Assembly (NCBI GenBank): GCA_017883205.1
Contig: JADGNZ010000037.1
Location: forward strand, 1 to 60,646
DNA length: 60,646 bases
Source of the DNA: Thermoanaerobaculia bacterium
GTDB lineage: Bacteria; Acidobacteriota; Thermoanaerobaculia; Gp7-AA8
Direction of reading: 5' to 3'
The position numbers and the translations under genes are program-made. How positions within the stretch are numbered: position 1 is the first letter of the stretch; each line of letters starts with the position of its first letter. Of the stretch, positions 46 to 60,646 are shown in pieces. The notes beneath the pieces were generated by a model, which had not been told where the DNA came from, did no database searches, and was given only the letters and a program-made list of their open reading frames with translations.

Positions 46-78
46 ACCTCCTTTTCAGATGCGCTTTCGGGCGCACGA

Positions 79-557
79 GTGCGGACGTCTCGTCCGCGGG
101 CACTTGGGCGTCTCGCCCAAGTGCTTCTGATCGCGGCTCCTGCTGAAATCTCCCCGATCGCTAGTCCTGCGCGCACGAACTGTTTTCGCATACGAGGACT
201 ATCGGAGCGGGCCAATCAAGCGCTACACAAGAACGTCACCCGGCCCGACCATTCCAGTCGCAGAAGCACTCGGGCGGGGACGCCCGCATTCCTCGGCCAA
301 CTATCCAGGCAGCCGGAGGAGTGCGGACGTCTCGTCCGCGGGCACTTGGGCGTCTCGCCCAAGTGCTTCTGCACTGAGTCTCCTGCTGAAATCTCCCCGA
401 CCGCCAGTCCCGCGCGTACGGACTATTTTCGCATGCGAAGACCATCGGAGCGGGTCAATCAAGCGCACACGAGAACGTCACCGGCCCGACGATTCCATTC
501 GCAAAGCACCCGGGCGGGACGCCCGAGTGCCCGCGGGCGAAGACGCCCGCACTCCTC
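79..557. repeat. Two tandem BIME-like units (about 240 bp each) of paired REP palindromes
   Basis: Two related units begin at about 79 and 319. Each opens with paired short palindromes (cores GGACGTCTCGTCC and GGGCGTCTCGCCC). A partly conserved middle of about 120 bp follows, containing a shared CCTGCTGAAATCTCCCCGA. Each closes with inverted palindromes (for example GGGCGGGGACGCCC near 275-290 and GGGCGGGACGCCC near 509-522). The last palindrome runs into the stop codon of the adjacent REP-associated transposase gene. This is the head-to-head REP arrangement known as a BIME. No coding sequence is evident in the interval. Confidence 0.8.
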
Positions 558-1230
558 AGACAGCAGCGGCGATGCGGTCGGGATGGATGCGGGACCAGGG
601 CCAGTCGCGGAGGCCGGCGGCTGCCGGATTTTGCGCGACGTATTCGACCGTGCGCTGCAGTTCGGCAGGGTCGCGAATGGAGTGGTCGAAGTACTCGGCT
701 TGCCAGATCGTTCCGCGCAATCCCAGAATCTTGCCGATCTCTTTGCTCGTGTAGCTCTTCCATGAGTGGAGCACTTCGTCGAGCGTGAAAGGAATGCAAC
801 TGAAGATCGTGTGCACGTGGTTCGGCATGACAGACCAGCAGTATTGCCTGCACTTCACATCATCGAAGTATTCGAGAGCACCCGCGACAAGCTTCGCGCA
901 ACGCGGATCCTTCAGTAGGCACTGACCCTCGCCCTTATCGAGTTGCTCCTCATATGCACGCCGAATCGCCGTCTCAATCGCGCGCTTCTCACCAATCAAG
1001 TAATCGCCTCGAAGGCATTCAAGCCGCTCCATTTCATAGGCTCGTTGCATGCGAAGTTCTTCGTGTACGTGGGCGGGAATGGCATCGATCAGATTCCAGG
1101 TGACGAAATAGATGCCATGCTCCACATCCCAGTGAGGCAGATGCACGCGCTTGCGAACTTCGACGGCACCGAGGTCATACTGCGTTTTCGTTTCTCTCAT
1201 GCAATCGAGGCTACCTCGGCGCATTTTCAC
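556..1230 (-). CDS. REP-associated tyrosine transposase (RAYT, IS200/Y1-Tnp fold)
   Basis: This is a 224-residue single-domain Y1 transposase of the RAYT group, which in other bacteria cuts single-stranded REP hairpins and is thought to spread or maintain REP/BIME elements. The metal-binding HUH motif is visible as PNHVH (H138, H140). The probable nucleophile is Tyr197 in the conserved VEYVAQNP segment, preceded by WQAEYFDHSIRD. The gene has no terminal inverted repeats of its own. It is flanked on its 3' side by two BIME units and on its 5' side by a single REP, the usual RAYT setting. The start is either Met1 at 1230 or Met11 at 1200; neither has a clear Shine-Dalgarno sequence. All catalytic motifs are present, so it looks intact. 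Confidence 0.9.
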   Translation of the reverse strand: MKMRRGSLDCMRETKTQYDLGAVEVRKRVHLPHWDVEHGIYFVTWNLIDAIPAHVHEELRMQRAYEMERLECLRGDYLIGEKRAIETAIRRAYEEQLDKGEGQCLLKDPRCAKLVAGALEYFDDVKCRQYCWSVMPNHVHTIFSCIPFTLDEVLHSWKSYTSKEIGKILGLRGTIWQAEYFDHSIRDPAELQRTVEYVAQNPAAAGLRDWPWSRIHPDRIAAAV

Positions 1231-2410: not shown

Positions 2411-2644
2411 CGGGTGTGGGGGGTGGGGAGTGGGGTGTGGGGTGTGGGGAGTGGGGAGTGGGGTGTGGGGAGTCGGGGGTCGGGAGTCGGGAGTCGTCGG
2501 GAGTCGGGTGTCGGGTGTCGGAGAAAAACCAAATGCCGGTTCGTCTCTCCGACTCCCGACCCCCGACTCCCGACTCCCCACTCCCGACTCCCGACTCCCG
2601 ACCCCCGACCCCCGACTCCCGACTCCCGACTCCCCGCCCCACTG
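2411..2644. repeat. S-family inverted repeat: G-rich arm of GGAGTCGG/GGGGAGTG words and its C-rich complement
   Basis: The left arm (about 2411-2520) is tandem GGGGTGTGGGGAGTG and GGGAGTCGGGAGTCGG words. The right arm (about 2550-2640) is the complementary CCCGACTCCCGACTCCC series, with a short non-repeat centre. It fills the spacer between two divergent genes and must contain or displace their promoters. The G-runs could form quadruplexes and the two arms a long cruciform. Confidence 0.85.
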
Positions 2645-8113: not shown

Positions 8114-10543
8114 CTACGAGTTCCCACCCTCATCGCCGCCGCCCGTTTTCGGGGCGTCGGACGAGGACGAGGAACCGCTGTCGTTGTTGAAGCGTGGGGC
8201 TCCGCCTTCGTGACGGGGAGCACCTTCGTGGCGCGGGCCACCTTCGTGGCGCGGACCGGAATCGCGGCGCGGGCCGCGGTCGTGATCGCGGCGTGGGCCA
8301 CGATCGCCTGAGCCGCCGCGTCCGCGGTCTCCACCACCGCCGCGCGGGCCACGGTCGCGGTCGCCGAAGCCGCCGCGTCCGCCGCGGTCGCTGCCACCAC
8401 CACCCGGGCCGTCGCGGCGCGGGGCGCGCGCTGCGGCGGCTGCTTCTTCCTCAGTCGGAGGCGGGAGGAGCGGTTTACGCGACAGGCGGATCTTGCCGCT
8501 GTCCGGCTCGATGCCGACGACCTGCACTTCGATCTCGTCGCCGATCTGCATGACGTCGGTCACCTGGCCGACGCGGCCGTGCGCCATCTCGGAAATGTGC
8601 AACAGTCCGTCCTGACCCGGCAGGATCTCGACGAAGGCTCCGTACGGCTCGATGCGCTTGACGGTGCCTTTGTAGTTCTTGCCGATCTCAGCCGAAGCTG
8701 TGAGGCCCTTGATGATGTCGATGGCGCGGTTGGCCGAGGCGACGTCGCTCGATGCGATCGTGACCTTGCCGTCGTCGGCGACATCGATCTTCGTTCCTGT
8801 CTCTTCGACGATCCAGCGGATGGTCTTGCCGCCGGAACCGATGACGTCGCGGATGCGGTCTTTCGGAACCATGACCGTGTAGAGGCGCGGCGCGAACTCG
8901 GAGAGCTCGGCGCTCGGACCGGCAACGGCAGCATCCATCTTGTCGAGGATGTGCAGTCGCCCTTCTTTAGCCTGCGCCAGCGCGCGCGCCATGATCTCGC
9001 GCGGCAGACCGGCCACCTTGATGTCCATCTGCAGCGCGGTGATGCCCTTGCGCGTGCCGGCGACCTTGAAGTCCATGTCGCCTTCGTGATCTTCCATGCC
9101 GGCGATGTCGGAAAGGATCGCCACTTCGCTGGCGTGGTCGCCGGTGACGAGGCCCATCGCAACGCCAGCAACCGATGCCTTCATCGGAACACCGGCCTGC
9201 ATCAGCGCGAGCGATCCGCCGCACACCGAGGCCATCGACGAGGAGCCGTTCGACTCGAGGATGTCGCTCACGATGCGGATCGTGTACGCGAACTCATCCT
9301 CGGTCGGCAGCAACGCGGCCAGCGCGCGGCGCGCCAGGTTGCCGTGACCGATCTCGCGGCGGGCGGGGCCGCGCATGAACTTCACTTCACCCACCGAGAA
9401 CGGCGGGAAGTTGTAGTGGAGCATGAAGCGCTGGAAGGTCTCGCCTTCGAAGTCTTCGATCTTCTGCGCTTCCTGCGGCGTGCCGAGGGTCACGGTGACA
9501 AGAGCCTGCGTCTCGCCGCGGGTGAAGATGGCCGAGCCGTGCGTACGCGGCAGAACCTTCGTATCGATCGTGATCGGACGGATCTCGTTGAAGGAGCGGC
9601 CGTCCACGCGGCGCTTTTCCTTGAGCATGAGGTTGCGGAAGATCTGCACTTCCATCTCGCCCCAGGCGGCGCCGACCGCAGTGAGGCGTTCGGTGTCTTC
9701 GGCGGGAACGGATGCGACGATCTCCGCCTTGAGCGCTTTGAGCGCGGCGTAACGCGGGAACTTGCCCGTCGTCAGCATCGCGTCTTTGAGCCGTGCGCCG
9801 TACTGCGTCATGAGCTCAGTCACGAGCTCGTCGGTAAACTTCGCGGTGTAGGTCACATCGAGCTTCGGCTTGTTGCCGCAAGCCTCGCGCAGCTCGAGTT
9901 GGAGCGCGCAGAGGCGGCGGATCTCGGCGTGGGCGGCGTCGAAGGCATCGAGGACGACGCTCTCATCGACTTCCCGAGCGCCCGCTTCGACCATGACGAT
10001 CGCGTCGGGCGTACCGGCCACGACGAGGTCGAGGTCGCAGAGGTCGCGCTGCGCGTTGGTCGGATTGACGACAATCTTGCCGTCGATGGAACCGATGCGG
10101 ACGGCCGAGATGGGATTCGGGAACGGGATCTCAGAGATCACCAGAGCCGTCGATGCGGCATTGATGGCCAGGATGTCGGGATCGTTTTCGCCATCGGCTG
10201 AGAGAACCAGCGCGATGATCTGCGTCTCTTGCCGGTAGCCCTTCGTGAAAGAGGGGCGGAGGGGACGGTCGATGAGGCGGCAGGTGAGGATTTCTTTTTC
10301 GGTGGGGCGTCCTTCGCGCTTGAAGAAGCCGCCCGGGATGCGGCCGCCGGCGTAGGTGTATTCCTTGTAGTCCACCGTGAGGGGCATGAAGTCGCCGAGG
10401 ACGGCGCCATCTTTGTAGCAGGCCGTGGCCAGGACGACCGTGTCACCGTAACGGATGACGCAGGCGCCGTTGGCCTGACGTGCAACCGCACCGGTCTCGA
10501 GCGAAAGCGTACGCCCGCCGATCTGGAGCTCTTTCTTGAACAT
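8114..10543 (-). CDS. pnp: Polyribonucleotide nucleotidyltransferase (PNPase)
   Basis: This 3'-5' phosphorolytic exoribonuclease of the RNA degradosome is 809 residues long. Two RNase PH domains occupy about the first 550 residues, followed by a KH domain with the GxxG loop (VIGSGGKTIRWI) and an S1 domain (YKGTVKRIEPYGAFVEIL...GLLHISEM). After about residue 700 there is an extra tail of roughly 100 residues, dominated by Arg-Gly/Asp-Arg-Gly and His-Glu-Gly repeats and ending in Ser/Gly, longer than in Escherichia coli PNPase (711 residues). ATG at 10543 is chosen because AAAGGA sits upstream and MFKKELQIGGRTLSLETG is the family N-terminus. The gene follows rpsO, the classic rpsO-pnp order. 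Confidence 0.97.
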   Translation of the reverse strand: MFKKELQIGGRTLSLETGAVARQANGACVIRYGDTVVLATACYKDGAVLGDFMPLTVDYKEYTYAGGRIPGGFFKREGRPTEKEILTCRLIDRPLRPSFTKGYRQETQIIALVLSADGENDPDILAINAASTALVISEIPFPNPISAVRIGSIDGKIVVNPTNAQRDLCDLDLVVAGTPDAIVMVEAGAREVDESVVLDAFDAAHAEIRRLCALQLELREACGNKPKLDVTYTAKFTDELVTELMTQYGARLKDAMLTTGKFPRYAALKALKAEIVASVPAEDTERLTAVGAAWGEMEVQIFRNLMLKEKRRVDGRSFNEIRPITIDTKVLPRTHGSAIFTRGETQALVTVTLGTPQEAQKIEDFEGETFQRFMLHYNFPPFSVGEVKFMRGPARREIGHGNLARRALAALLPTEDEFAYTIRIVSDILESNGSSSMASVCGGSLALMQAGVPMKASVAGVAMGLVTGDHASEVAILSDIAGMEDHEGDMDFKVAGTRKGITALQMDIKVAGLPREIMARALAQAKEGRLHILDKMDAAVAGPSAELSEFAPRLYTVMVPKDRIRDVIGSGGKTIRWIVEETGTKIDVADDGKVTIASSDVASANRAIDIIKGLTASAEIGKNYKGTVKRIEPYGAFVEILPGQDGLLHISEMAHGRVGQVTDVMQIGDEIEVQVVGIEPDSGKIRLSRKPLLPPPTEEEAAAAARAPRRDGPGGGGSDRGGRGGFGDRDRGPRGGGGDRGRGGSGDRGPRRDHDRGPRRDSGPRHEGGPRHEGAPRHEGGAPRFNNDSGSSSSSDAPKTGGGDEGGNS

Positions 10544-10655
10544 TCGATTCCTTTGGTGCCCGAGGCCACTCATCACCTCGATGCGTTTGAATTGTCCGCT
10601 GTGGCCGGACGATGGGATCCAGCCGGAGGGGGTGCGCGCGGCGTGCCACGCGCCA

Positions 10656-10686
10656 GAAAAACTTCGGGCGCACATGACGTGCGCCC
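10656..10686 (-). terminator. rpsO terminator/attenuator between rpsO and pnp
   Basis: GGGCGCAC (10666-10673) pairs perfectly with GTGCGCCC (10679-10686) around a 5-nt loop, followed on the minus strand by GAAGTTTTTC. A second short hairpin (GGGCGC TTTC GCGCCC, 10696-10711) sits between the rpsO stop codon and this one. Together they could attenuate read-through into pnp or form a processing site. Confidence 0.75.
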
Positions 10687-10719
10687 GATTGCTGCGGGCG
10701 CTTTCGCGCCCTGATGTGG

Positions 10720-10989
10720 TTACTTGCGGATGCCCAGCTTGTCGATGATGGTGCGGTAGCGGTCCTGGTCCGTCTTCTTGAGGTAGTCCAGAAGGCGGCG
10801 GCGCCGGCCGACCAGCTTCAGGAGACCGCGGCGGCTGTGATGGTCCTTCGCGTGCGTCTTGAAGTGCTCCGTCAGGTAGGTGATGCGGTTCGAGAGGAGT
10901 GCGATCTGCACTTCTGGCGATCCGGTATCGACGTCGTGGACTCGATACGAGGTGATGAGCTCAGTTTTCTGCTCTTTGGTGGTTGGCAA
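10720..10989 (-). CDS. rpsO: 30S ribosomal protein S15
   Basis: 89 residues, the full family length, with the conserved [36 protein letters not shown] and C-terminal [12 protein letters not shown] segments. S15 binds 16S rRNA helices 20-22 and nucleates assembly of the central domain. The start codon is TTG at 10989, with AAGGAG placed 8 nt upstream. It is upstream of pnp, as in many bacteria. Confidence 0.97.
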
Positions 10990-11131
10990 ATCCGTGTCTC
11001 CTTAAGACTTAAACCCTTGTAAATGCAATCGTCCGCTTTGAAACGCGACACCATAACAGCGGCGCGGATCAAAATCAATCCCGCGACGCCTACAGCTACG
11101 TCAGTCCGCACCTGAACCGCAGGTTCTCCTC

Positions 11132-11137
11132 TAGAAT
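11132..11137 (+). promoter_or_regulatory. -10-like element TAGAAT 7 nt before the ATG of the first MNT gene
   Basis: TAGAAT ends 7 nt before the ATG at 11145, which places the predicted transcription start at or next to the start codon, suggesting a leaderless mRNA. The surrounding TTCTCCTCTAGAATTGCATC is repeated before the second MNT gene. No clear -35 box or Shine-Dalgarno is visible. Confidence 0.5.
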
Positions 11138-11144
11138 TGCATCC

Positions 11145-11462
11145 ATGGCCACGACCCGCGAGCTTGCCATCCCGATCCCTCACGAGGCCATCGCCGCGTT
11201 CTGCCGGAAGTGGGGCGTGCGGCGGCTGTCGTTCTTCGGGTCGGTGGTGCGGGATGACTTCGACCCGGAGCGGAGCGATGTCGATGTGCTGGTGGAACTG
11301 CGCCCGGATACGAAGGCACGAGGGTTGGCGTTCTTCGGGGCCGAGATCGAGCTCTCGGACATCTTCGGAGGACGCAAGGTTGAGATGATGACTGGCGTTC
11401 GCGAGGCTTACCGCAAGTCGATCGAGCCCGATCTGGTCGTTGAATATGTCGAAGAAGTCTGA
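11145..11462 (+). CDS. MNT-type minimal nucleotidyltransferase (antitoxin-like), copy 1
   Basis: A 105-residue minimal nucleotidyltransferase of the MntA/DUF4062-like group, with the motif GS...SDVDVLV (Gly32-Ser33, Asp45, Asp47) and a third acidic position in GRKVEMM. In HEPN/MNT modules such proteins AMPylate and silence the HEPN RNase. The first ~50 codons are nearly identical to the next gene; after that the two diverge sharply. It has no HEPN gene directly behind it, so it may be a duplicated orphan antitoxin or share the downstream partner. Confidence 0.85.
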   Translation: MATTRELAIPIPHEAIAAFCRKWGVRRLSFFGSVVRDDFDPERSDVDVLVELRPDTKARGLAFFGAEIELSDIFGGRKVEMMTGVREAYRKSIEPDLVVEYVEEV

Positions 11463-11477
11463 GAGTCGCTTCTCCTC

Positions 11478-11483
11478 TAGAAT
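11478..11483 (+). promoter_or_regulatory. -10-like element TAGAAT 6 nt before the ATG of the second MNT gene
   Basis: This is a duplicate of the element at 11132, inside the same 20-nt conserved upstream block (11470-11489). It predicts separate, leaderless transcription of the second copy. Confidence 0.5.
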
Positions 11484-11489
11484 TGCATC

Positions 11490-11804
11490 ATGTCCACGAC
11501 CCGCGAGCTTGCGATCCCGATCCCGCACGAGGCCATCGCCGCGTTCTGCCGGAAGTGGGGCGTGCGGCGCCTCTCGTTCTTCGGCTCGGTCGTGCGGGAC
11601 GACTTCGATCCGGCGCGGAGCGATGTGGATGTGCTGGTGCAATTCCGGCCAGGTCAGACGCCAGGGTGGGCGATTGTCAGTGCCGAAGACGAGTTGGCGA
11701 AGATATTCGGCCGCAAAGTCGACCTTCGGACATCGAACGAGCTCAGTCGCTGGATGATCAAAGACGTTATGGCGGAAGTGGTGGACGAGTATGTCGAAGC
11801 GTAA
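11490..11804 (+). CDS. MNT-type minimal nucleotidyltransferase (antitoxin), copy 2
   Basis: A 104-residue paralogue of the preceding protein with the same GS...SDVDVLV active-site motif and the third Asp in GRKVDLRT. Its last 14 nt overlap the start of the HEPN gene, the usual arrangement for MntA-HepT-like pairs, so this copy is the likely cognate antitoxin. The established role of such antitoxins is polyadenylylation of a tyrosine in the HEPN active site; whether that applies here is inference. Confidence 0.88.
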   Translation: MSTTRELAIPIPHEAIAAFCRKWGVRRLSFFGSVVRDDFDPARSDVDVLVQFRPGQTPGWAIVSAEDELAKIFGRKVDLRTSNELSRWMIKDVMAEVVDEYVEA

Positions 11805-19376: not shown

Positions 19377-20825
19377 ATGCCAAACGAAATCCAAACCGTT
19401 GAGCCCCGCATCTCCCGCGGCCTTCGCGATCTCCTGCCCGATCAGATGCTGGCACGCCAGTCGATGATCGACACGATCCGTCACGTCTACGAGCTCTACG
19501 GATTCGTTCCGCTCAGCACGCCGGCCATCGAGTTTCTCGACGTCCTCTCCGGCAGCGCGGGACAGGAAGCGCAGCAATCGATCTTCCGCGTCAGCAATCC
19601 CGAGGAGGAAGCGCTCGGCCTTCGGTTCGATCTCACCGTTCCGCTGGCGCGCGTCATCGCCCAGTATCGCGATCTCCCGCGCCCCTTCCGCCGCTACCAG
19701 GTCTCGCCCGTCTGGCGCGCGGACAAGCCCGACAAAGGCCGCTTCCGCGAGTTCACGCAGTTCGATCTCGACTCCGTCGGCACCGAGACTGAGGTCGCCG
19801 ACACCGAGATCATGGCCGGGATGTGCGACACGCTTTCGGCGCTTGACGTCGGCCGCTATCTCGTCCGCTTCTCCAGCCGGGCCATGCTCAACCTGCTGCT
19901 CGACTTCTCCGGCATCAGCGCCAAGCAGGGCGTCGACGTTTTTCGCGTGCTCGACAAGCTCGACAAGGTCGGACTCGACAAGGTCTCGCGCGAGTTGATG
20001 AATGGCTACAAGGACGAGTCGGGCGACACGATCCGCGGCGTCGGACTGGCCGCCGATCAGGTCGATCGCATCAAGCGCTTCCTCGAGATCAAGAACGATA
20101 ATCGACGCGAAGTCGTAACACAGCTTCGCGCGCTCTTCGCAAACCTCGATCATGCCGCCGCGCAGATCGATACCGTCGAGCGAATCTCCAATCATCTCTA
20201 CGCCCTCGGCTATGACGACGACCGCGTCTCGCTCGATCTCTCCATCGCCCGCGGCCTCGCCTACTACACCGGGCCGGTCTTCGAAGCGATCCTGCTCGAC
20301 GCGCCGCAGTTCGGCTCCGTCTTCGGCGGCGGGCGTTACGACGATCTCGTCATGCGCTTCCTCGGCGAAAAAATCCCCGCCGTAGGGGCATCGATGGGTG
20401 TCGATCGCCTTCTCGCCGCTCTCGCCCACCTCGGGCGCGTCGACTCCCGAAAGGCAACCGCGCGCGTCCTCATCACGAACATGGACAAGTCGCTGACGGA
20501 CGATTACCTGCAGATGACGTGGGAACTGCGCCGCGCCGGCATCCCCACCGAGTTCTACATCGGCATGGCCAAACGCCTCGGCAAACAGCTCGAGTACGCG
20601 GATCAATACGAAATCCCGCTCGCAATCCTCTGTGGCTCGAACGAAAAAGCAAAGGGCGAGGTCACCGTGAAAAACATGGCCGCCGGCCGTGCCAAAGCGG
20701 GAGCACTCAACGACCGCAGCGCATGGCTGGCCGAGCGGCCGGGCCAGACGACGATCTCACGGGACAAGCTGGTCGATGGCATCCGCGAATTGCTCGCAGA
20801 GATCGAATCGGCACCTAACGCGTGA
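19377..20825 (+). CDS. hisS: Histidyl-tRNA synthetase
   Basis: A 482-residue class II synthetase that charges tRNA-His. Motif 1 lies in RGLRDLLPDQM...ETPAIEFLDVLSG-type sequence. Motif 2 is RRYQVSPVWRADKPDKGRFREFTQFDLDSVG, split here as RRYQVSPVWRADKP and KGRFREFTQFDLDSVG. The histidine-binding segment is ARGLAYYTG, motif 3 is in GGGRYDDL...AVGASMGVDRL, and the C-terminal anticodon domain is present. The motif-2 region resembles the divergent alphaproteobacterial/eukaryote-like HisRS type more than E. coli HisRS. A diverged copy of its last ~47 codons follows at 20929-21068. Confidence 0.95.
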   Translation: MPNEIQTVEPRISRGLRDLLPDQMLARQSMIDTIRHVYELYGFVPLSTPAIEFLDVLSGSAGQEAQQSIFRVSNPEEEALGLRFDLTVPLARVIAQYRDLPRPFRRYQVSPVWRADKPDKGRFREFTQFDLDSVGTETEVADTEIMAGMCDTLSALDVGRYLVRFSSRAMLNLLLDFSGISAKQGVDVFRVLDKLDKVGLDKVSRELMNGYKDESGDTIRGVGLAADQVDRIKRFLEIKNDNRREVVTQLRALFANLDHAAAQIDTVERISNHLYALGYDDDRVSLDLSIARGLAYYTGPVFEAILLDAPQFGSVFGGGRYDDLVMRFLGEKIPAVGASMGVDRLLAALAHLGRVDSRKATARVLITNMDKSLTDDYLQMTWELRRAGIPTEFYIGMAKRLGKQLEYADQYEIPLAILCGSNEKAKGEVTVKNMAAGRAKAGALNDRSAWLAERPGQTTISRDKLVDGIRELLAEIESAPNA

Positions 20826-20831
20826 GCGGAA

Positions 20832-20920
20832 GGGGTCAGACCGAAAGTGAAAGTGACGAAAACTGTCTGACCTCCTAAGCGACCAGCATCTTTCGTCACT
20901 TTCACTTTCGGTCTGACCCC
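20832..20920. repeat. H-family palindrome copy 1 (GGGGTCAGACC)
   Basis: Perfect 30-nt arms (20832-20861 and 20891-20920) enclose a 29-nt loop. The pairing extends into flanking GCGGAA / TTTCCGC. The 89-bp core is identical to copy 2. It begins 7 nt after the hisS stop codon. Confidence 0.95.
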
Positions 20921-20928
20921 TTTCCGCT

Positions 20929-21068
20929 GGCCGTGCCAAGGCCAGCGTGCTGAATGACCGCGGCTCTTGGCTGGCGGAACGGCCGGGTCAGACAACGATC
21001 TCTCGGGATAAGCTCGTCGAAGGGATCGAGGATTGCTCGCAGAGATTGAATCAGCACCAAACGCGTGA
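20929..21068 (+). pseudogene. Diverged, frameshifted relic of the hisS 3' end
   Basis: It aligns to hisS 20685-20825. The translation A K A S V L N D R G S W L A E R P G Q T T I S R D K L V E G I matches the HisRS C-terminus with few changes. A single missing base then shifts the frame, after which L L A E I E S A P N A stop is recovered in another frame. DNA identity is roughly 80% by eye, so it is not a recent perfect duplication. It lies between two identical palindromes. Confidence 0.9.
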
Positions 21069-21074
21069 GTGGAA

Positions 21075-21163
21075 GGGGTCAGACCGAAAGTGAAAGTGAC
21101 GAAAACTGTCTGACCTCCTAAGCGACCAGCATCTTTCGTCACTTTCACTTTCGGTCTGACCCC
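21075..21163. repeat. H-family palindrome copy 2 (GGGGTCAGACC)
   Basis: Identical over 89 bp to the copy at 20832. Its flanking bases are GTGGAA / TTCCAC instead of GCGGAA / TTTCCGC, so pairing of the outer stem is kept by a compensatory change. Confidence 0.95.
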
Positions 21164-21224: not shown

Positions 21225-22994
21225 ATGACCGAAACCATCATCCTTGACGGCCACTCCCTCACGATCGAGCAGCTCGTGCGCATCGCGCGCGACGCGAGCG
21301 TGCGCGTGGCGATCGATCCGTCGTGCGATGCGCGCGTCGCCGCCAGCGAGGCGCTCATCGCGCGCGTCGTCGCCAACTATCGACGCGCCTGGGAAGCGGG
21401 CGAGCCGGCAGCGACTGAGTACGGCGTCACCACCGGCTTCGGCGAATTCAAAGACAAACCAATAGCTCCGGCCGATCTCGAGCAGCTCCAGCGCAACCTT
21501 CTGCTCTCGCACTCCGTCGGCGTCGGCGAGAACTGCGATCCCGACGATCTCTCCAACTACTTCCCTGCCGACGTCGTGCGCGCCGTGCTGGTCACGCGAC
21601 TCAACTCGTTCCTGCAAGGCCACTCTGGCGTCCGCCGCAAACTCGTCGACATCCTCCAGGCGATGCTCGAGCGCGGCGTCATCCCGCTCGTGCCGTTACG
21701 CGGCTCCGTCGGTGCCAGCGGCGATCTCTGCCCTCTCTCTCACACCTTCGCCACCCTTCTCGGCGCCGGCCGCTTCTACATCGCCGGGACCACGGAACTA
21801 CGCGACGCATCCGAGCTCCCTGGGACCGCGGGCGTCTCGCCCGCATCGATCGAGCCGAAGACAGCGGGCGAGACGCCCGCGCTCCCAGGGTTTACTGCCG
21901 AAGATCTCAGACCGACCTTCAAGGAAGGACTCGCCCTCGTAAACGGCGTCAACTTCTCCGCATCGATGCTCGCGTTCGGCGTCGCCGATGCCGAGCGTCT
22001 CGCCGATCTCGCCGACGCCTCCGCCGCGATGACGCTCGAAGCGATGGGCGGTTGCACGCGCGCGCTCGATCCAAAAGTCCACGCCGCGCGCGGACACGCA
22101 GGCCAGATCGCCAGCGCGGCGCGCATGCGCGCGCTCATCGCCGGAAGCAAACTCGTCGAGCGTGCCGGCGCCGTGCAGGATCCGTATTCGCTCCGCTGCG
22201 CGCCGCAGGTTCACGGTGCCTCGCGCGCGGCCATCCGTTACGCACGCGAGGTGGCCGAGCGCGAGATCAACGCCGCCACCGACAATCCGCTCTTCTTTCC
22301 CGGCGAATCCGAGCCGTTCGATGTTCAATTCCGCGACAACTGGCCGCCGAACTATCGCGGCGACGAGCGCCTCGCCTACTCCGCCGGCAACTTCCACGGC
22401 CAGCCGATCGCGCTCGCCGCCGACTTCCTCAGCATCGCCCTCGCCGAACTGGCCAATATCTCCGAGCGCCGCACGCAGATGCTGCTCGACAGCGACCACA
22501 ATCGCGGCCTTCCGTCGAACCTCACCACGCGTCCCGGCGTGAACTCAGGCCTGATGATCATGCAGTACACCGCCGCCTCGCTCGTCTCCGAGAACAAAGT
22601 CCTCGCCCACCCCGCCTCGGTCGATTCAATTCCGACCGGCGCGAACGCCGAGGATCATGTGTCGATGTCGACGCACGCGGCGCGCAAAATGCGAACGATC
22701 CTCAGCAACGCGCAGAGTGTCCTGGCCATCGAGCTGATCGTCGCCGCACAGGCGATCGACTGGCGCGTAGCGATGATGCAAGGCGTGCCTGAAGCGCACA
22801 ACCTCGCCGCCGCCGAGTCGCAGGCAACGGCGTTCGAAGCCGCCGTCTCCGAACACGCCGACGACATCGCGAAACTCCTCGGCCACGGTACCGCAGAGCA
22901 CTATCTCCGCGTCCGCGCCCTCGTCGATCCTGTCTTCGCTGACCGCCCGCTCCACGAATCCATCCGTCGCATCCGCCTCGGCATCTGCCAATAG
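21225..22994 (+). CDS. hutH: Histidine ammonia-lyase with a palindromic element inserted in frame
   Basis: The enzyme deaminates L-histidine to urocanate, the first step of histidine use. With the ATG at 21225 it has 589 residues; a GTG at 21192 would add 11. The self-cyclising Ala-Ser-Gly (164-166 in GSVGASGDLCPLSH) that forms the MIO cofactor is present, as are the YGVTTGFG loop, SRAAIRYAREVAEREINAATDNP and FHGQP segments. Residues about 198-222 (LPGTAGVSPAS...TAGETPALPG) are not part of the family; they translate a 73-bp palindrome. No other hut gene is adjacent. Confidence 0.93.
   Translation: MTETIILDGHSLTIEQLVRIARDASVRVAIDPSCDARVAASEALIARVVANYRRAWEAGEPAATEYGVTTGFGEFKDKPIAPADLEQLQRNLLLSHSVGVGENCDPDDLSNYFPADVVRAVLVTRLNSFLQGHSGVRRKLVDILQAMLERGVIPLVPLRGSVGASGDLCPLSHTFATLLGAGRFYIAGTTELRDASELPGTAGVSPASIEPKTAGETPALPGFTAEDLRPTFKEGLALVNGVNFSASMLAFGVADAERLADLADASAAMTLEAMGGCTRALDPKVHAARGHAGQIASAARMRALIAGSKLVERAGAVQDPYSLRCAPQVHGASRAAIRYAREVAEREINAATDNPLFFPGESEPFDVQFRDNWPPNYRGDERLAYSAGNFHGQPIALAADFLSIALAELANISERRTQMLLDSDHNRGLPSNLTTRPGVNSGLMIMQYTAASLVSENKVLAHPASVDSIPTGANAEDHVSMSTHAARKMRTILSNAQSVLAIELIVAAQAIDWRVAMMQGVPEAHNLAAAESQATAFEAAVSEHADDIAKLLGHGTAEHYLRVRALVDPVFADRPLHESIRRIRLGICQ
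21818..21890. repeat. REP-like palindrome inside hutH
   Basis: CCCTGGGA and GCGGGCGTCTCGCCCGC on the left pair with GCGGGCGAGACGCCCGC and TCCCAGGG on the right. Each 17-nt inner arm is itself a small hairpin with the same CGTCTCG core as the REPs at 79-557 and 42.06 kb. The length and frame leave the gene open. Confidence 0.92.
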
Positions 22995-26655: not shown

Positions 26656-27083
26656 GAGCCATCGATGCCTGGTTTTGTCATTATGGATGGCTTGCTCGAT
26701 GCCATCGATGGCTAGTTCGATGCCATCGATGGCATGGGTCAATACCATCGATGGCATGGCTCAATACCATCGATGGCATAGGTCGATGCCTTCGATGGCT
26801 TGGTCGATGACGTCGATGGCATGGGTCGATACCATCGATGGCATTGGTCGATGCCTTCGATGGCTTGGGTCAATGCCATCGATGGCTTGGTCGATGACGT
26901 CGATGGCATGGGCCGATACCATCAATGGCATGAGTCGATACCATCGATGGCATGGGGTGATGCCTTCGATGGCATGGGTCGATGCCATCGATGGTATCGC
27001 TCGAGGCCACCCATGGGTTGGTTCGATGCCGCCGATGAATTGGCTTCGAACCGTCGATGGCTTGGCTCTAACCATCGATGCAA
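26656..27083. repeat. Tandem array of 21-23 bp units with a CCATCGATGG palindrome core
   Basis: About 18 head-to-tail units of the form TCGATGCCATCGATGGCATGG with substitutions (ACC, CCT, GACG variants). A higher-order pattern is visible: the run CCTTCGATGGCTTGG...GACGTCGATGGCATGG occurs twice. Unit length is not a multiple of three, so short frames through it shift and are not real genes. It fills the spacer between divergent genes for VPS10 paralogue 2 and an M3 peptidase. Confidence 0.9.
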
Positions 27084-40843: not shown

Positions 40844-41021
40844 CCTATCATGACCGACGGCTGGCGGCGTCCCGTCGCCGAACCGGCAAGACTCCGAACA
40901 CTCGCCGGTAGCCTCGGCGGCGAGCCACCGGCCCTCCGGCGCGCAAGTAACTGTCTATCAACGAGTTACAACTTCCAGGAAAACGAAGGCCTGACCCTCC
41001 GCCGCCCGGAACGGCCGATTC

Positions 41022-41392
41022 CGATCATCTTTTCTTTGATCCGGATCATCTTTGGATTGATCCGGATCATCTTTTTTTCCCTTCCGGATCATCTCTGGAT
41101 TGATCCCGATCATCTTTTTTCCCCTCCGGATCAACTCTGGATTGATCCGGATCATCTCTTTCTTCCTCCGGATCAACTTTGGATTGATCCGGATCATCGT
41201 TTCTTTCCTCCGGATCAACTTTGGATTGATCCGGATCATCTTTTTTTCCTCCGCGGATCAACTTTGAATTGATCCGGATCATCTTTTTTTTCCTCGGGAT
41301 CAACTTCGGGTTGATCCGGATCAACTCTTCTTTCCTCCGGATCAAGTCTCGTTTGATCCGGATCAACTTTGGATTGATCCGAAGCCCTCCAT
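41022..41392. repeat. Tandem array of ~42 bp units with TTGATCCGGATCAA palindromes
   Basis: About nine units of the form CCGGATCAACTTTGGATTGATCCGGATCATCTTTTTTTC with variations. Each has a perfect or near-perfect palindrome (TTGATCCGGATCAA) and a pyrimidine-rich spacer. The 42-nt period keeps frame, so short frames read as 14-residue peptide repeats, but there is no sign of a real gene. It occupies half of the 740-bp spacer at 40829-41570; the rest shows nothing recognisable. A related array is at 60504 to the window end. Confidence 0.92.
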
Positions 41393-41570
41393 TCACCCTC
41401 CTTAGAAGATGTTTTTTCCTACAACGGAACAGAAGGAGCAGCCACTGGATAGCTGGTCGCCTGAACTCCTACAAACTGCTCGGATCGTGCTCGGAACCAA
41501 TCGAACGTCCAGCCTCACAACCGATCGGCAGGATGCGCGACCCTTTCGGTAGTACGCTAAACTTCCGTCC

Positions 41571-42173: not shown

Positions 42174-49442
<7,269 letters not shown>

Positions 49443-49635
49443 TACGCGCTGTCCTCCTGAACCCGGCATTGAAGCCGCCGAGCGAGTTTGCAGCTTTCAG
49501 ACCATGGATGAGGGCGGTGTGCGGTCTCGCGGGCGTGCTGGAAGATGCCGACTCAGCCTCGATCTTGCGGTTCAAGGCACGCGCGGCAGGCCACTCCGAG
49601 ACCGCGCAACTGCGCGACCGCGAAACCCTGACGGC

Positions 49636-50688: not shown

Positions 50689-50740
50689 GGAGGCCGCAAG
50701 TATATGGAATGAAGCCCGCGCGCGACCACACGACTGCGCT

Positions 50741-50798
50741 ACCGCAAACCTAATGCGCCGCGACCGTGCGATCCAACGTGCGAAACCGCACGGTCTCG
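50741..50798 (-). pseudogene. Relic of a nuoF 3' end
   Basis: On the minus strand it translates E T V R F R T L D R T V A A H stop, against E T V R Y R R L D R A V A A H stop in nuoF at 53051-53099. Similarity stops abruptly on its 5' side, so only the final 15 codons, the stop codon and a short downstream stretch remain. Confidence 0.88.
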
Positions 50799-52884: not shown

Positions 52885-53050
52885 ACCGAAAGGTTACCGC
52901 ACTTGATCGCAGAGATGGACGATGGTTACGGTTCCGCAGGGGATTCCTCGCCCGCCCGCCGCCCCGCCCTCTCGGAATGACAGTTGCGGGCTTGCGGATT
53001 TGGCTGGGCTTCTGCGCGACAGCGCTACTGCGCGAACGAGTACCGCAACT

Positions 53051-54361
<1,311 letters not shown>

Positions 54362-60335: not shown

Positions 60336-60503
60336 CGTCAAGCTCCTTGCTACAGCATCGTCAATCAACTGCCCGCAGGCCTGTCTACTCACCCGGCAGC
60401 GGACGCGTTGCCGGGCGGTCTGATTTCTCTCAGACATATCTTTGACGCAAGAATTTTCTGAAGGTTACGGAAAGGTATTTTCCGAGGGGTGAAAAGGGGG
60501 GGG

Positions 60504-60646
60504 TCGGATCAATCCAAAGTTGATCCGGATCAGTCCAAAGATGATCAGGATCAAAGAAAAGATGATCCCGATCAATCCGAAGATGATCCGGATCAAAGAA
60601 AAGATGATCCCGATCAATCCAAAGATGATCCGGATCAAAGAAAAGA
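60504..60646. repeat. Tandem GATCCGGATC-type array at the right edge
   Basis: Repeated units of about 42 bp such as GATCCGGATCAAAGAAAAGATGATCCCGATCAATCC continue to the last base, so the array is truncated by the window. It is the same family as the array at 41022-41392 in the opposite orientation. Confidence 0.9.

Follow-up and report, generated by a model that had tools for sequence, protein, structure and literature searches.

A second hisS gene end between two identical palindromes: a possible scar of allele recombination in a Thermoanaerobaculia bacterium

Why does an intact gene for histidyl-tRNA synthetase (hisS) stand in front of a second, broken copy of its own 3' end, and why does the same palindrome follow both ends? 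The locus lies in a stretch of 60,646 nucleotides (the window) from a Thermoanaerobaculia bacterium, a soil-type organism with a genome of 6.37 Mb in 105 contigs. The original prediction, made from the sequence of the window, described a frameshifted copy of the hisS 3' end, an identical 89-bp palindrome behind each end, and outer stems that read GCGGAA/TTTCCGC in one case and GTGGAA/TTCCAC in the other. Our alignments agree with this description. Positions 20924-21068 match 20680-20825 (146 bp of hisS, TGA included) with 82% identity, a single one-base deletion and a BLAST E value of 1.8e-35, the palindrome cores do not differ at any of their 89 positions, and the outer stems are as given. 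The features of the locus are listed below.

19377..20825, + strand: hisS, intact histidyl-tRNA synthetase gene, 482 amino acids (Pfam tRNA-synt_His and HGTP_anticodon)
20680..20825, + strand: 3' segment of hisS that recurs downstream (from the alignment)
20826..20927, + strand: palindrome PAL1, immediately 3' of the hisS stop codon (core 20832-20920, outer stem GCGGAA/TTTCCGC)
20921..20928, + strand: junction of the PAL1 foot with the relic (from the sequence; CCGC at 20924-20927 matches both the palindrome end and hisS codons)
20924..21068, + strand: relic of a second hisS allele (its final ~48 codons with the TGA), with one base missing and without a start codon
21069..21169, + strand: palindrome PAL2, immediately 3' of the relic TGA (core 21075-21163, equal to the PAL1 core; outer stem GTGGAA/TTCCAC)
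21225..22994, + strand: aromatic amino acid lyase gene (Pfam Lyase_aromatic), presumably hutH-like

Palindromes and RAYT-like genes

The hisS protein is 88-90% identical in amino acids to those of two congeners. The lyase gene follows hisS in 12/12 related genomes whose loci reach far enough (tblastn on hisS loci; two further genomes end too soon), with a gap of roughly 10 to 330 bp. The unit of hisS end and palindrome recurs at a spacing of about 243 bp, and in the whole 6.37-Mb genome the relic has no second match besides hisS. The 89 bp of the PAL1 core form an inverted repeat around a loop of ~29 bases, the outer stem of PAL1 holds one unpaired T, and each of the two cores folds as a single long hairpin (-73.5 and -74.4 kcal/mol).

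Judged by their sequence, PAL1 and PAL2 belong to a family of RAYT-associated palindromes whose arms begin with GGGGTCAG, whose stems carry matching changes on both sides and whose loops are variable. A script found 69 members in the stretches read; the usable number is 67, since window 2476-2605 is G-rich sequence of low complexity and L111 has too little flank. None occurs in 400 kb of control stretches. At E 0.001, the PAL sequence matched none of 59 relatives. The 25-base PAL1 arm (GGTCAGACC...) was absent, with up to one mismatch allowed, from a sample of 395 other genomes taken from a larger set of the phylum, in a search for this one arm variant of the family.

Within an element the outer arms pair with each other. 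In 24 copies, which include L054 with a truncated arm and the non-independent PAL1 and PAL2, the elements' own pairs beat all 5000 re-pairings, and for the 12 copies without GGAA 10/5000 re-pairings were as good as the own pairs. Since outer arms match within elements more than between them, the compensatory pair of PAL1 and PAL2 is one case of a family habit. The claim that pairing is maintained by compensation fits this pattern, which can also stem from template copying from arm to arm and is no proof of selection.

RAYT-type matches with family palindromes on both sides were found on C41 at 63815-64216 (72.5 bits) and 71396-71797 (70.8 bits), both of which miss the family cut-off of 80, and on C73 at 76825-77226 with 84.5 bits, which passes it. 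Another of the several RAYT-like genes of the genome lies in the window and adjoins a different type of palindrome:

556..1230, - strand: RAYT-like Y1 transposase gene (Pfam Y1_Tnp; NCBIfam REP_Tyr_transpos 70.8 bits, cut-off 80)

Beside this gene, a unit with the other palindrome (GAGTGCGGACGTCTCGTCCGC) is present twice in tandem with 89% identity (window 77-286 and 319-525). On C37, two palindromes of stretch L064 (2543-2639 and 3157-3253) are 98% identical including their loops and lie in the same orientation ~0.5 kb apart; this pair could be a composite unit.

Age of the palindromes and origin of the relic

The ends of hisS and relic are 18% apart in their coding sequence, while the palindrome cores behind them do not differ. 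At the divergence of the coding ends, the chance of 0/89 core differences is about 2e-8, and it is 0.003 for the 29-base loop alone. Copying from arm to arm cannot repair a loop. The absence of any difference in 89 bp means that the copying of the palindromes postdates the split of the alleles, and because PAL1 is only 83-85% identical to its best full-length matches elsewhere in the genome, PAL1 and PAL2 share a local and recent source. These comparisons show the two, as far as their sequences go, to be recent copies of one another.

The 26 differences between hisS and relic are distributed over the three codon positions as 3/2/21, and 20 of them are synonymous and six are not. The share of third positions (21/26) exceeds an expectation of one third with p about 9e-7, and it exceeds an expectation of one half, which is our own approximation for a dead copy and a live gene that diverge in place, with p 0.0012. 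In a dead copy, changes are spread evenly over the codon positions, and a live/dead pair should differ at third positions in about half of the cases; since 21/26 lies above both, the relic is the end of a once-working allele. The third-position excess implies that both hisS and the relic evolved as working genes, so that the relic is not a decayed local duplicate but, by its codon pattern, the 3' end of another hisS allele that was functional as a gene until recently. A dead duplicate formed in place was among the candidates for the relic, and for hisS it was rejected on these codon-position differences.

Over the common codons, the relic is 81.5% identical to its own hisS, 73.0% to that of congener G002 and 67.4% to that of congener G001, and 39/45 residues are alike in the hisS end and the relic. 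Several relic codons carry the states of congeners where the own hisS differs, and the relic is therefore not simply derived from it. In a tree of 46 codons, the relic pairs with its own hisS (weak support of 62) and has the longer of the two branches. Such a tree had been proposed as a way to find the donor; it places the relic beside the intact gene, and the donor lineage is not among the genomes searched. The proposed search of related genomes for hisS followed by the palindrome found none in the 59 relatives at E 0.001. Both this arrangement and the donor allele were absent from every genome searched, a donor search in phages gave no match, and a scan of the genome collection did not find the relic's allele at 7 loci of relatives (best identity 90%). 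The relic's allele probably came from, or once belonged to, a close sister lineage outside the genomes searched.

We consider it probable, with moderate confidence, that the hisS locus is the scar of an allele recombination between closely related lineages at a RAYT-type palindrome behind the stop codon. The joint between PAL1 and the relic, read from the alignment, is shown to sit at the foot of the palindrome and to be non-homologous, and CCGC at 20924-20927 is a possible 4-bp microhomology there. An incoming hisS allele together with its palindrome may have replaced the resident allele or may have been added before it; one side would have recombined through homology in hisS, the other side would have been joined illegitimately at the palindrome foot, and the resident hisS 3' end would have been left downstream as a displaced relic. 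Two orders of events are conceivable. The gene end and palindrome may have been duplicated in tandem, after which the upstream copy took the other allele by homologous recombination. Otherwise, a homology anchor in hisS and an illegitimate end may have acted in one step, similar to homology-facilitated illegitimate recombination, and the palindromes would then have been converted to identity. Duplication as the initial step explains the identical palindromes more simply. A long hairpin can stall a replication fork or be cut at its foot, which would explain the position of the joint, and the hairpin may thus promote an illegitimate joint during hisS exchange between relatives. The original suggestion that a donor hisS end plus palindrome was added by recombination is supported in part by two results, namely the different, functional hisS allele indicated by the third-position excess and the palindromes that are younger than the split of the alleles. 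Clusters of REPs reiterated in tandem with flanking DNA, and REPs near the 3' ends of ORFs, are described in PMC3733652.

Recurrence at other gene ends and rival explanations

Each of the 67 palindromes was searched for a direct repeat between its two flanks (700 bp). At four of them, a truncated copy of the 3' end of the adjacent gene lies on the far side of the palindrome; in addition to hisS, the genes concerned are as follows.

C73, L066 560-1115: relic of a RAYT gene, 94% identical in the coding sequence; both copies are followed by a palindrome, in tandem
C72, L127 1155-1673: relic of a SpoIIE-domain gene, a 92% copy beyond the palindrome
C68, L104 828-1526: relic of a thioesterase-superfamily gene, an 89% copy in the order gene end, palindrome, array, relic

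At the RAYT gene, the gene-proximal palindrome is shorter and has lost most of its loop. Recurring stretches like CTCCATGGTAGACGTGAA lie beyond the SpoIIE relic, and an array of GAGTCTTTTGCGAAAGACCCC units of about 0.4 kb separates the palindrome from the thioesterase relic, which lies directly against the 3' end of an ORF in convergent orientation. No second family palindrome stands behind the SpoIIE and thioesterase relics within the stretch read, and thus the four loci are not identical in layout. The joint is at the palindrome foot for hisS and RAYT, the SpoIIE relic begins ~30 bases off the core, and the thioesterase relic does not adjoin it.

Differences by codon position are 2/2/6 for RAYT, 3/2/10 for SpoIIE and 2/3/6 for thioesterase, whose relic has more non-synonymous (7) than synonymous (4) differences. 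Summed with hisS, the four loci give 10/9/43, that is 43/62 at third positions (p 7e-9 against one third and 0.0016 against one half). Without hisS, the share is 22/36 (p 0.12 against one half), and judged by these counts the RAYT, SpoIIE and thioesterase loci do not reject divergence in place after local duplication.

The control, 400 kb chosen regardless of palindromes, contained no clean 3' relic among 326 mechanical ORFs; set aside were tandem arrays recognised by periodic hits (L136, L138, L145, L150, L154, L155, and the window at 26800 and 41067), one G-rich hit of 41 bp in L143 and weak hits of 66-70% at 5' ends (L138, L153). Comparison of 4/67 with 0/326 gives p 0.0008, or 0.003 with L143 counted (1/326), and these values are rough because palindromes with 700-bp flanks and ORF ends with 2500 bp are different units and because we placed the control stretches at rounded positions of contigs on which hits had been seen before. 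Flank repeats that were not counted are C41 64767-64859 (76-80%) and a 69-bp repeat around L045 4419, which are both parts of an internally deleted RAYT unit, as well as short matches 27-35 bp long, of which L045 has two and L053, L109 and L132 have one each.

The original prediction saw in hisS and nuoF a possible recurring way of adding foreign DNA at gene 3' ends. Three more loci of similar layout and a control without clean cases speak for recurrence, whereas the nuoF case lacks the palindrome:

50720..50798, - strand: repeat of the nuoF 3' end, ~2.2 kb downstream of the gene (nuoF at 53051-54361), without a GGGGTCAG palindrome

The copy itself is real, as the last 49 bp of nuoF recur here with 88% identity together with some sequence from behind the stop codon (source side 53014-53099). 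Lacking the palindrome, it is a looser parallel to hisS, and on this alignment it shows that a gene-end relic can arise without a GGGGTCAG palindrome. The neighbours downstream of the nuoF, SpoIIE and thioesterase genes did not turn up in the congener flanks (about 1.5 kb), so that synteny gave no orientation of the event, and nothing in the congener flanks read aligned with the interval between nuoF and its copy.

Repeats of other kinds were also seen. Degenerate copies (73-77%) of a gene start lie at about 10120-10343 of the control stretch L151, upstream of an ORF (10457-11374) that by eye we take to be ABC-transporter-like, and form a 5'-side counterpart of the gene-end relics. In the window, the beginning of a short gene, presumably nucleotidyltransferase-like by eye, is present in two neighbouring open copies with 84% identity (11124-11368 and 11470-11710). 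Arrays of a ~21-base GATC-rich unit occur in both orientations (window 41017-41396 and 60493-60646, L053 3228-3568), and the ORF at 42174-49469 (2431 amino acids) contains a 276-base repeat 14 times at 45105-49040, with 60-69% identity to the reference copy.

How do other explanations compare with these data? Template switching at the palindrome could have copied the hisS 3' end plus palindrome in tandem, with subsequent decay of the relic in place. Such a purely local duplication would explain together why the palindromes are identical and why the units are spaced by about 243 bp, and the RAYT locus on C73, with 94% identity and a palindrome after both copies, fits it well. For hisS we regard it as unlikely, given that the coding ends are 18% apart and 21 of their 26 differences fall on third positions, against 0/89 differences in the palindrome cores. 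Both alleles would have evolved as genes if gene transfer had produced two full tandem hisS genes, from which a deletion then removed the interval between the PAL1 foot and codon ~434 while the palindromes were homogenised. The 4-bp CCGC overlap at the joint suits such a merodiploid, and tandem duplications made by transformation are known (PMC3784515). However, the relatives' loci read contain no tandem hisS, the 3' end alone remains at four loci, and three of four relics begin at or within about 30 bases of the palindrome core, a pattern not expected of random deletions; we find this course of events improbable.

An assembly artefact, in which two coexisting strains were merged at a shared palindrome, deserves attention because the genome is in 105 contigs, the congeners are metagenome assemblies and coexisting strains would supply two hisS alleles. 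Yet merging hisS-PAL with hisS'-PAL gives no link from the PAL1 foot to the middle of hisS', a link that needs real molecules. The direct orientation of the relic means that a hairpin turn-around cannot produce it, and similar layouts exist at three other loci, all of which makes an artefact quite improbable in our view. The RAYT-like genes inside palindrome clusters on C41 and C73, and the C37 palindromes that enclose ~0.5 kb of other sequence, would suit a transposase that mobilised a unit of palindrome, hisS' end and palindrome and placed it downstream of hisS. The unit would have had to hit by chance the very site after the gene that it matches, and the same chance would have had to occur at three further genes; we give this explanation very little credence.

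Meaning and comparison with known systems

Recombination between hisS alleles of close relatives at the palindrome is the reading that we retain. How REP-like palindromes spread, and why they frequently stand behind coding regions, is not settled. A layout that recurs, with a gene end, a palindrome and then the displaced end of another allele, would tie these palindromes to allele exchange between close relatives, and it gives a countable scar to seek in other genomes. We put forward as a tentative and rather doubtful extension that RAYT/TIRYT palindromes spread between relatives as passengers of gene-end exchange. A fragment of gene 3' end plus palindrome, cut off at the foot, would place itself by homology in the gene and join illegitimately beyond the palindrome, and each arrival would displace the end of the resident allele. 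If true, this would explain palindromes behind stop codons without a transposition for every copy. Our findings further suggest that gene-end displacement touches housekeeping genes, whose relics can mislead annotation and recombination studies.

REPINs are, according to PMC3116915, RAYT-associated and dispersed pairs of inverted arms with a variable spacer and compensatory changes between the two sides. The present family shares with them the inverted arms, the hairpin, the variable spacer, the dispersed copies, the compensatory changes and the RAYT genes; it differs in arms that begin with GGGGTCAG and in the displaced gene ends, which the text consulted does not describe for REPINs. The GTAG tag of classical REPs was seen by eye at none of the stem ends of 24 copies, which commonly end with GYGGAAGGGGTCAG. 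Koribacter versatilis is an acidobacterium. TIRYT transposases, reported in this species too, have TIR repeats of GGGGWSAS type that form dispersed families and are in some cases self-complementary (PMC3733652). GGGGTCAG fits the published motif GGGGWSAS, and the palindromes flank RAYT-like genes (C41, C73) as such repeats do; gene-end relics are not described in the text of PMC3733652 that was consulted.

Homology-facilitated illegitimate recombination, which involves transformed or conjugated DNA, was proposed for T6SS cargo genes, to account for genes and an effector 3' end that lie shifted in T6SS clusters of Vibrio (PMC5361080). The hisS locus resembles it in a single non-homologous joint between the PAL1 foot and hisS codon ~434 with 4 bp (CCGC) shared, and in that, as in PMC5361080, older genes or a gene 3' end moved downstream. 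Sequence of another lineage is indicated by the third-position excess between the two hisS ends, either of which may be the foreign one. The locus differs in that hisS is a housekeeping gene, that a palindrome lies at the joint and that its homologous side is a presumed one. Merodiploids can form in transformation by alternative pairing, in which incoming homologous DNA and a repeat lead to a tandem duplication; the units there lie at IS repeats and measure about 100-900 kb, unlike the hisS unit of 243 bp (PMC3784515).

No report of displaced gene ends at REP-like palindromes was found in the open-access literature. In rhs genes, C-terminal displacement reportedly keeps the 5' part and replaces the 3' end, and the old end stays downstream. 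The hisS locus is similar in that a gene 3' end appears to be replaced and the former end left downstream; rhs 3' ends differ in kind, whereas the hisS end and the relic encode nearly the same protein. Gene-end displacement is known from toxin genes; here it probably affects a housekeeping gene as well as a transposase gene and lies at palindromes of RAYT type.
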